DNA from: Moheibacter lacus
GTDB taxonomy: Bacteria; Bacteroidota; Bacteroidia; Flavobacteriales; Weeksellaceae
Assembly: GCF_014042165.1 (NCBI RefSeq)
Contig: NZ_JACDZE010000001.1
Location: forward strand, 704,595-768,594
Direction: 5' to 3'
DNA length: 64,000 nucleotides
Of the stretch, positions 5,728-7,652 are shown piece by piece (position 1 is the first letter of the stretch; every line of letters starts with the position of its first letter). The translations under genes and the position numbers were made by a program. A model generated the notes under the pieces. It was not told where the DNA came from. It worked only from the letters and a program-made list of their open reading frames with translations, and did no database searches.

Positions 5728-7401
5728 ATGATTCAAAATATAACCCGAGCTAGACAATCAACTACAGCCATCGACCGACTATACATCACCATGCGGCATA
5801 TGTTTCACCGCGGAAACTATCGCCCAACCGGTCATTCCGGCAAAATGATTCAAGATTTATTGTTACAATTAAATCCTGAGATTTACGGCACCATGGCCGA
5901 CCAGGAAAAAGTAGAACTCAATGGATTGCTTTATGTGCTAGACAGGCTTCCAGATGGGATTACAGAAACGCCCTATATCAATTTCACATCCAATGAAGGT
6001 GTAGATTTCACCAAATTCAAACCCATCATTCCTCCTAAAAGAAGAAGGGTCTGTTATCGGGTGGACGAAGACCAAATGAACATCGAAGTCACGCGTGGAC
6101 GATCTGAAATTTATGATACCATGACGCATTTGACCTTTTTGTACAATGAGTCTGATAAAATACGTGCCAAATCTTTCCACAAACAAACCCAGAAACCCAA
6201 TCGGGTTTGGGGAAAAATTGAACAAATTGCGCTGAGCGAAAGCAAATTATCTGTTAAAGACAGAGATATAGCTTTGATGCATCTTTCCACTATTTTGGGC
6301 AGGTCTTATAACGAAACCCAAATCGCCTATAAATATTTCAGCACTGAAACGGACAAAGACAAATTCTTCAAAATCATCTATTGGATGGGCAAAACCTCAC
6401 AAGAAGATTTGCTCGGTATCAAAAGAAGAGAAATCATGTTCTCACCCATTTTACGCGAAAGAATCGGACACCATATCGTAGGAGAAAAATGGGCCAATAC
6501 GATCAAAAAGGCATTGGTCGAACAGAATTTGATCCATCGACCACTGCACATCATCAGCGCCAATATGCACAGTGTTTCCAATATGCTCTATGCTTTTGAT
6601 GCGCTAGAAAAGAATTTTTCCACTTCAGAAGAATTTGATTTGTATAAAGCCCTTTCATCCAGTAAAAGCAAATCGCTCAGAGAAACGGTTCAGAATTATT
6701 CTCATAAAAATGGACTGACTTTTATTCCGGACTCATCAGGAACCAACATCGACGTCCAAATCATCGATCTAGAAAACGTAAAATTGAAGAACACCGCTTT
6801 TTCAGATGTCAAAGCAAGTTCAGGAGATGTCATTTTGGTGATGGATTATGCTTTTGGCGAACAAGCTTTTGAGAGCATGGACGAATTATTAAAACCTTAT
6901 AAAACCAAAAGCTCCAGCATCATGATGAATGTCGCTTCTGTTTCCATCATGGGGAAAGCCGGGATACTTTGTGGTAAAAAAGGAGATATCATGATCCCAA
7001 CTTCACACATCGTGGAAGGACCCACAGATAATTATGTCATTAAAAATGAATTCAAAACAGAAGATTTCAAAGGAAATCGTTTGGGAGTTTTTGAAGGACC
7101 AATGGTGACCGTTTTGGGAACTTCACTCCAAAACAAAGATGTTCTGGAATATTTTAAAAACTCATCATGGAAAGCCATAGGACTGGAAATGGAAGGTGGT
7201 CACTACCAAAAAGCCATTCAAATCGCGTCACAAATTCGTCATCATATTTCTCCTGATGTAAAAGTGATGTATGCTTATTATGCTTCTGACAACCCATTGG
7301 AAACCGGTAGCACCTTGGCTTCAGGCGGTTTAGGTTTGACAGGCGTAAAACCCACCTACTTGATCACAAAAATGATTTTAAAGAAAATCTTAAACGCTTA
7401 A
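5728..7401 (+). CDS. Uncharacterised Bacteroidota protein with phosphorylase-like C-terminus
   Basis: Cytosolic-looking protein of 557 residues without signal peptide or membrane segment. I recognise it as a conserved family of Flavobacteriia without assigned function (possibly DUF6909, from memory). The C-terminal ~150 residues carry KKGDIMIPTSHIVEGPTDNY near 415-435 and GLEMEGGHYQKAI with Glu487 and Glu489. These resemble the phosphate/ribose-side and purine-side motifs of NP-I nucleoside phosphorylases. The N-terminal 380 residues are basic and helical with no motif I know. It follows the DUF3109 gene by 23 bases and its stop overlaps the stop of the convergent His-rich gene by 4 bases. 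The phosphorylase link is inferred from motif pattern. Confidence 0.7.
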   Translation: MIQNITRARQSTTAIDRLYITMRHMFHRGNYRPTGHSGKMIQDLLLQLNPEIYGTMADQEKVELNGLLYVLDRLPDGITETPYINFTSNEGVDFTKFKPIIPPKRRRVCYRVDEDQMNIEVTRGRSEIYDTMTHLTFLYNESDKIRAKSFHKQTQKPNRVWGKIEQIALSESKLSVKDRDIALMHLSTILGRSYNETQIAYKYFSTETDKDKFFKIIYWMGKTSQEDLLGIKRREIMFSPILRERIGHHIVGEKWANTIKKALVEQNLIHRPLHIISANMHSVSNMLYAFDALEKNFSTSEEFDLYKALSSSKSKSLRETVQNYSHKNGLTFIPDSSGTNIDVQIIDLENVKLKNTAFSDVKASSGDVILVMDYAFGEQAFESMDELLKPYKTKSSSIMMNVASVSIMGKAGILCGKKGDIMIPTSHIVEGPTDNYVIKNEFKTEDFKGNRLGVFEGPMVTVLGTSLQNKDVLEYFKNSSWKAIGLEMEGGHYQKAIQIASQIRHHISPDVKVMYAYYASDNPLETGSTLASGGLGLTGVKPTYLITKMILKKILNA

Positions 7402-7652
7402 TGGAGGTGTTTTTTCTTTTGTCCGGGCGCATGGCGTTTGGCTGATTTTTCGCCATGATGTTTTTTCACATGACCGGGCGGATGATGTCCAAGACGTTTG
7501 TCGTGATGTCCATCTGACCTATGGTGCGGATCATGTTTGGAATGAGGTGGTTTGGGATGTTTCGGATGATGTGGAGGACGTCTGTGCGGTGCGCATGCGG
7601 TCAACAAAACGGCCACTAAAAACAATCCCAAAATTGATTGTAATTTTTTCAT
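7398..7652 (-). CDS. Small histidine-rich lipoprotein
   Basis: Lipoprotein of 84 residues. The signal peptide ends with lipobox LLTAC (Cys20). The mature part is almost only His, Pro, Lys, Arg and Gly, with 18 histidines in about 64 residues, many as HH pairs. This predicts an unstructured, strongly basic, metal-chelating tail held in a membrane; binding of zinc, nickel or copper is possible but unproven. It converges on and overlaps by 4 bases the preceding gene. No exact promoter box is seen upstream. The clear lipoprotein signal supports it being real, and the low complexity prevents family assignment. Confidence 0.72.
   Translation of the reverse strand: MKKLQSILGLFLVAVLLTACAPHRRPPHHPKHPKPPHSKHDPHHRSDGHHDKRLGHHPPGHVKKHHGEKSAKRHAPGQKKKHLH

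Follow-up and report, generated by a model that had tools for sequence, protein, structure and literature searches.

The window that we analysed, a stretch of 64,000 nucleotides, contains an intact open reading frame whose 557-residue product is a member of the Pfam family DUF6909 (PF21850), matching its model with 208.5 bits, above the curated cut-off of 27 bits (Table 1). The first-pass annotation had called this product an unknown Bacteroidota protein carrying motifs in the order found in NP-I phosphorylases. Both motifs were located in the frame, GDIMIPTSHIVEG at residues 419–431 and GLEMEGGH at residues 485–492, and that description holds insofar as the Pfam entry has no assigned function, although the family itself was already described. 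The gene is present in a single copy in its own genome (13 contigs, 2.77 Mb), in which the two matched stretches represent one frame. Genes for an S1/P1 nuclease (PF02265) and tdk (PF00265) adjoin it in the window. Its end overlaps by 4 bases with an 84-residue open reading frame on the opposite strand (7398–7652, −) that has no Pfam match and whose product, which may bind metal, has a lipoprotein-like signal and a tail rich in His, Pro and Lys. Following tdk is a gene for a 135-residue PDDEXK_3 protein (PF13366; 9267–9674, +).

Table 1. Features of the DUF6909 gene and its product, with positions in the window and the basis of each assignment.
Feature	Positions	Strand	Basis and remarks
DUF6909 gene	5728..7401	+	557 aa, ATG to TAA; open reading frame and Pfam PF21850, E 1.9e-61
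N-terminal domain, residues 1–249, alpha/beta	5728..6474	+	No convincing PDB fold match; 43/249 columns invariant
NP-I-fold domain (predicted), residues 250–557	6475..7398	+	VIA-align Z 19.7; Foldseek; 91/308 columns invariant
H248-H249-I-V-G252	6469..6483	+	Proposed counterpart of Amn H188/Y189 (RHYTG); by eye; H249 and G252 in 127/127 rows
N279	6562..6564	+	Proposed counterpart of Amn N205, end of first strand; by eye; 127/127 rows
G409-K410-A411-G412, former phosphate loop	6952..6963	+	hhalign; DeoD Arg87 -> I407 (I or V), Ser90 -> K410
E430-G-P-T-D-N-Y436 (family consensus EGTADNY)	7015..7035	+	hhalign to EGTSNDY of AMN-like proteins
Q468-N469-K470	7129..7137	+	Position 470 always basic (81 K, 46 R); near Amn R381; hhalign
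E487-M488-E489, putative ribose-binding motif	7186..7194	+	Aligned with DeoD E179-M180-E181 and Amn D403-M404-E405
S520-D521-N-P523-L524	7285..7299	+	D521 aligned with DeoD D204/Amn D428, purine N7 acid; SDxPL/M shared with Amn and AMN-like proteins

Relatives of the gene are numerous. A pattern search of genome contigs gave 590 matched stretches, 584 of which encode a DUF6909 relative, and the best 80 of those 584 were retained. The family alignment comprises 127 rows (122 distinct and five duplicates) with 50–68% identity to the window protein, and conservation across them is far beyond chance, with 134 invariant columns that include G409–G412, E430–G431, E487–G490 and S520–L524. DUF6909 was found in 56 of 395 genomes sampled from the same phylum, the Bacteroidota, in 72 of 196 from the same order and in none of 14 control genomes. 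Among the matches listed, it is present in all genomes of f1 and f2, the two flavobacterial families that are largest in the sample, a figure that describes the listed genomes and not universality, as genomes without a match are only partly represented there. A plasmid search found the gene in two Persicobacter records, which are plasmids or secondary replicons, and the family therefore extends to the Cytophagales; a phage search gave no match to it. Against the PF21850 model the window protein reaches no more than 208 bits across 535 positions, an indication that the family has more distant members elsewhere.

Models of known nucleosidases did not recognise the protein. No NCBIfam family matched it at E <= 1, and hence none of TIGR01717, TIGR01721 and NF005500, and at the same threshold it had no match to the Pfam families PNP_UDP_1 (PF01048) and AMNp_N (PF10423). 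PF01048 has only two loci in the window's genome, both other than the DUF6909 gene, and AMNp_N is absent from the whole genome at E <= 10. Judged by these models, the DUF6909 protein lies outside the described AMP nucleosidase families. PDB sequence searches with the protein and with a 60-row profile returned chance matches only, and PADLOC and PHROGs yielded nothing useful for it. In the literature collection searched, no paper was found under DUF6909 or PF21850, and searches for AMP nucleosidase in Bacteroidetes, Bacteroides thetaiotaomicron or Flavobacterium returned none on the subject, as judged by titles and abstracts.

An AlphaFold2 model of the full-length protein, built from a 60-row alignment, had a mean pLDDT of 86.0 and a pTM of 0.81. 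At E <= 0.001, Foldseek matched 232 PDB chains to it, and the 50 of these that were listed are uridine phosphorylases, purine nucleoside phosphorylases, MTA phosphorylase, MTA/SAH nucleosidases and AMP nucleosidases. The best VIA-align match was Bacillus anthracis DeoD, with an rmsd of 2.6 over 213 aligned residues at 13% identity (model range 253–556), and a search of viral models matched three nucleoside phosphorylases over the same C-terminal domain. AlphaFold2, Foldseek and VIA-align thus agree that residues ~250–557 have a predicted NP-I fold, as the motifs had led the first-pass annotation to expect, and an unrelated fold was not what emerged. The layout proposed there, ~380 unmatched residues followed by a C-terminal third, requires redrawing: an unmatched domain and an NP-I part are both present, but the model divides the protein into ~250 unmatched residues and an NP-I domain of ~308. 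We set the start of the latter at ~250 because its first strand (273–277) and helix (280–293) lie there; residues 295–366, which are poorly conserved (5 of 72 columns invariant), form an insertion within it. Since the top 50 VIA-align entries span Z scores of 19.7–18.3, structure by itself cannot separate the NP-I families.

The N-terminal domain is also confidently predicted, residues 1–251 modelled alone having a pLDDT of 89.9 and a pTM of 0.88. Its comparison with the PDB revealed no convincing relative (best Foldseek E 0.47; best VIA-align Z 3.0 over 96 residues), although such weak matches, in a search that covered the PDB, fall short of proof of a new fold. Many of its invariant columns are basic (R23, H24, R28, R73, R105, R107, R111 and H134). 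It was never seen alone, as every listed match to the N-terminal part of PF21850 in the phylum sample shares its frame with a match to the C-terminal part. Confidently predicted yet unmatched, this domain would repay determination of its structure.

The residue equivalences in Table 1 were anchored by hhalign alignments of DUF6909 with a mixed NP-I profile and with the short AMN-like AMP nucleosidases of Bacteroidota (TIGR01721/NF005500), which agree on G409–G412 and E487–E489. DeoD-type purine nucleoside phosphorylase is the best structural match of the C-terminal domain, and in it we take Arg24, Arg87 and Ser90 to form the phosphate site, E179/M180/E181 to contact the ribose and D204 to be the purine acid. 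DUF6909 has equivalents of the ribose residues and of the acid, and each of the 127 rows has M488, E489 and D521; D521 (YASDNPL) was matched by its SD motif, with which the low-confidence tail of the AMN-like hhalign alignment concurs. The phosphate residues, in contrast, are not kept, with S282 at the position of Arg24 (placed by eye), isoleucine or valine at 407 for Arg87 and K410 for Ser90. The presence of phosphate- and ribose-binding residues, on which the first-pass annotation had suggested a check, is therefore answered in two ways: those for ribose and base are there, but the phosphate site is altered. Purine and ribose residues that are kept, together with a phosphorylase arginine that is lost, would point to a hydrolase rather than a phosphorylase.

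The comparison with Escherichia coli Amn is less straightforward. PMC9584410 names N205, W383, M404, E405 and D428 as the base and sugar residues of Amn, and R381 and K436, plus H188 and Y189 from the other chain, as its phosphate ligands; these residue letters were confirmed on the E. coli sequence. Full-length Amn (484 residues, TIGR01717) resembles DUF6909 in having an extra N-terminal domain ahead of a C-terminal NP-I domain, equivalents of M404, E405 and D428, and an SDKPL motif. It differs in that its N-terminal domain is AMNp_N, whose profile finds no match in DUF6909, and in that K436 and W383 are not conserved, there being no lysine in S520–L530 of DUF6909 to match K436 (K217 of the AMN-like proteins). 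For the other phosphate ligands, K/R470 (for R381) and H249 (for H188/Y189) are candidates only, as the alignment is uncertain at these positions.

Profile comparisons place the AMN-like AMP nucleosidase nearest to DUF6909 among the NP-I families compared. The C-terminal domain of DUF6909 scored 27.2 in hhalign against 38 AMN-like sequences, a value that none of 200 column shuffles of the AMN-like alignment reached (mean 16.2, sd 2.9, maximum 23.7; reversed alignment 14.5). Scores against other NP-I families were 17.5 for DeoD, 20.3 for Mtn and 17.2 for Udp-like proteins, and full-length E. coli Amn alone, at 15.9, scored no higher than the shuffles. Small single-family NP-I profiles, aligned locally and globally, gave nothing above chance except AMN-like, and profile depth does not account for this signal since 20 random subsets of five AMN-like sequences scored 24.8–28.6. 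Because the probability assigned by hhalign itself is low (5.5% against AMN-like; 10.2%, with the same motifs aligned, against the mixed NP-I profile, which has 18 rows, one of them AMN-like), the case for kinship rests jointly on the shuffles, the contrast between families and the fold.

Both families belong to the NP-I class, lack the phosphorylase arginine and have a GKxG loop (GKCGG in AMN-like) with the lysine equivalent to K410, and they have in common the blocks GDxxxP...EGTxxxY, [ED]ME[GT] and SDxP[LM] (SDQPM in AMN-like). The AMN-like proteins differ in being 258 residues long, without the N-terminal domain, and in their own phosphate residues (NRRxW and GVKT), which are not kept as such in DUF6909. 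They are called AMP nucleosidases by homology, TIGR01721 being a hypothetical equivalog. Frames of ~400 residues in one family (f24; for example G054:C16:148568-149320) match TIGR01721 with ~150 bits and perhaps represent another AMP-nucleosidase-like architecture. Gene fusions suggested by long frames (910 residues in G430, 643 in G564, and 697–700 with AMN-like in g218) were not convincing at the three loci read (L205, L206 and L203). At L203 (1765–3441), from a genome of family f60, AMN-like is a separate open reading frame directly after a gene that reads like FtsY; other genomes of the genus show the same long frame.

The two families have complementary distributions among genomes. AMN-like was scored by TIGR01721 at E <= 1e-10, a threshold at which 97 of the 155 positive phylum genomes lie below the curated cut-off, and the matches below it include those of ~150 bits in ~400-residue frames, a score of the kind expected for E. 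coli Amn. In the phylum sample, AMN-like was present in 155 of 390 genomes and DUF6909 in 56 of 395 (the AMN-like search covered five fewer), with none shared where 22.3 were expected (hypergeometric P 2.4e-14), and in the order sample the corresponding counts were 33 and 72 of 196, again with none shared and 12.1 expected (P 4.4e-8), both P values being inflated by kinship among the genomes. The same pattern was found within single families. Family f60 has DUF6909 in 11 of 88 genomes, AMN-like in 61, neither in 16 and both in none (7.6 expected; P 4.1e-7), and by genus the counts are 6, 12, 1 and 0 of 19 (P 2.6e-4), with kinship inflating these values also; exactly one of the two genes was present in 51 of its 56 well-assembled genomes. 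Two further mixed families in the phylum sample showed no overlap (three DUF6909 versus two AMN-like genomes in f5, and four versus four in f8). MTA/SAH nucleosidase served as a control and was found together with DUF6909 in 3 genomes, with 2.8 expected; that family is rare (20 of 395 phylum genomes), and with its overlap at chance we rejected DUF6909 as its replacement. Neither DUF6909 nor AMN-like was found in 179 of 390 phylum genomes and 91 of 196 order genomes, so many genomes either do without the function or fulfil it by other means. Overall, the exclusion supports a functional replacement of AMN-like by DUF6909 to a moderate to good degree.

The gene neighbourhood, in contrast to what the first-pass annotation had drawn from it, is of little help. 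The comparison comprised 96 loci (the window and 95 of 112 + 15, with the short-flank loci L001, L002 and L083–L112 excluded), and the S1/P1 nuclease and tdk, real neighbours in the window, did not recur beside DUF6909 in any of the 95 related loci. We consequently rejected this setting as a clue to nucleotide salvage, and the context says little on the substrate. Even the three nearest relatives (L003–L005) share only a dxs-like gene and DUF3109 with the window. More commonly, a GH3-like gene lies upstream (70 of 96 loci) and an M23 peptidase gene further upstream (67 of 96), and a gene of one family without a Pfam match is found just downstream on the same strand (71 of 96). An MsrA gene is upstream in four loci of one other family. 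In L007, L009 and most Flavobacteriaceae loci, DUF6909 is part of a same-strand run with the M23 peptidase, GH3-like and sugar-nucleotide genes, an unexpected setting for a nucleotide enzyme. Apart from single matches, the 38 AMN-like loci are not in a neighbourhood of the DUF6909 type; a tdk relative lies near the AMN-like gene in two of them (L168 and L173, two genomes of one genus), a number too small to bear on the question and probably a product of chance.

Proceeding from what was observed directly, namely the open reading frame, its conservation, the confident NP-I model, the profile similarity to AMN-like and the exclusion in the genome samples, we propose that DUF6909 may be a two-domain enzyme that hydrolyses AMP, or an adenine nucleotide related to it, and stands in for AMP nucleosidase, a reading to which we give an even chance. 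It would be an N-ribosyl hydrolase of NP-I fold whose C-terminal domain (~250–557) binds a purine nucleotide, most likely AMP, with M488 and E489 holding the ribose and D521 protonating the base. As the phosphorylase phosphate site has lost its arginine, we infer that the attacking group is water and not phosphate, and the products would be adenine and ribose 5-phosphate. Adenine could be reused, since the window's genome encodes an adenine phosphoribosyltransferase. The 5'-phosphate may be held by K410, K/R470 and H249 of a neighbouring subunit, which presupposes an oligomer, and the N-terminal domain (1–249) might complete or regulate the site, a part that the extra domain of proteobacterial Amn, although unrelated, may also play. 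In Bacteroidota of the Flavobacteriales type and in some others, DUF6909 would substitute for the short AMN-like AMP nucleosidase. An extended form of this proposal, which we hold only tentatively, is of a non-orthologous replacement in which the N-terminal domain, of unsolved fold, either responds to a nucleotide signal or alters the site so that it accepts a larger adenine nucleotide.

Other explanations compete with this proposal. It is possible, if somewhat doubtful, that the protein is an NP-I nucleosidase or phosphorylase for another purine compound, such as 5'-substituted adenosines, an NMN/NAD-type compound or a modified nucleotide, with the N-terminal domain shaping the pocket. Base and ribose residues that are invariant while the Amn phosphate lysine is not conserved would be compatible with such a specificity, as would an N-terminal domain rich in invariant basic residues that could bind a larger anionic substrate; a shared role is nevertheless favoured by the exclusion of AMN-like and the AMN-like signal in the sequence, and MTA/SAH nucleosidase, which acts as a comparison here, shows no exclusion. 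A nucleotide sensor or regulator of NP-I fold without catalysis, an option that the first-pass annotation had also raised, would fit the large conserved extra domain and the conserved operon-like placement, seen at most Flavobacteriaceae loci, with cell-envelope rather than salvage genes. We consider it improbable because the catalytic-type residues M488, E489 and D521 are invariant, which is unusual in a fold no longer used for catalysis, and the family with which DUF6909 excludes itself is one of enzymes.

The exclusion could itself have arisen by lineage sorting rather than replacement, the roles of DUF6909 and AMN-like being unrelated. Two large families of a single order do account for most DUF6909 genomes, and the many genomes with neither gene are in keeping with this. 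Such an origin seems unlikely to us, however, given that three families (f5, f8 and f60) contain genomes of both kinds with zero overlap.

Assigning an enzyme activity to DUF6909 would close a gap in purine nucleotide metabolism for a very large group of bacteria, and its strict exclusion with AMN-like would stand as a clear example of one enzyme replacing another. If the extended form of the proposal is true, adenylate breakdown within a single phylum is governed by two unrelated control designs, and no genome contains both.
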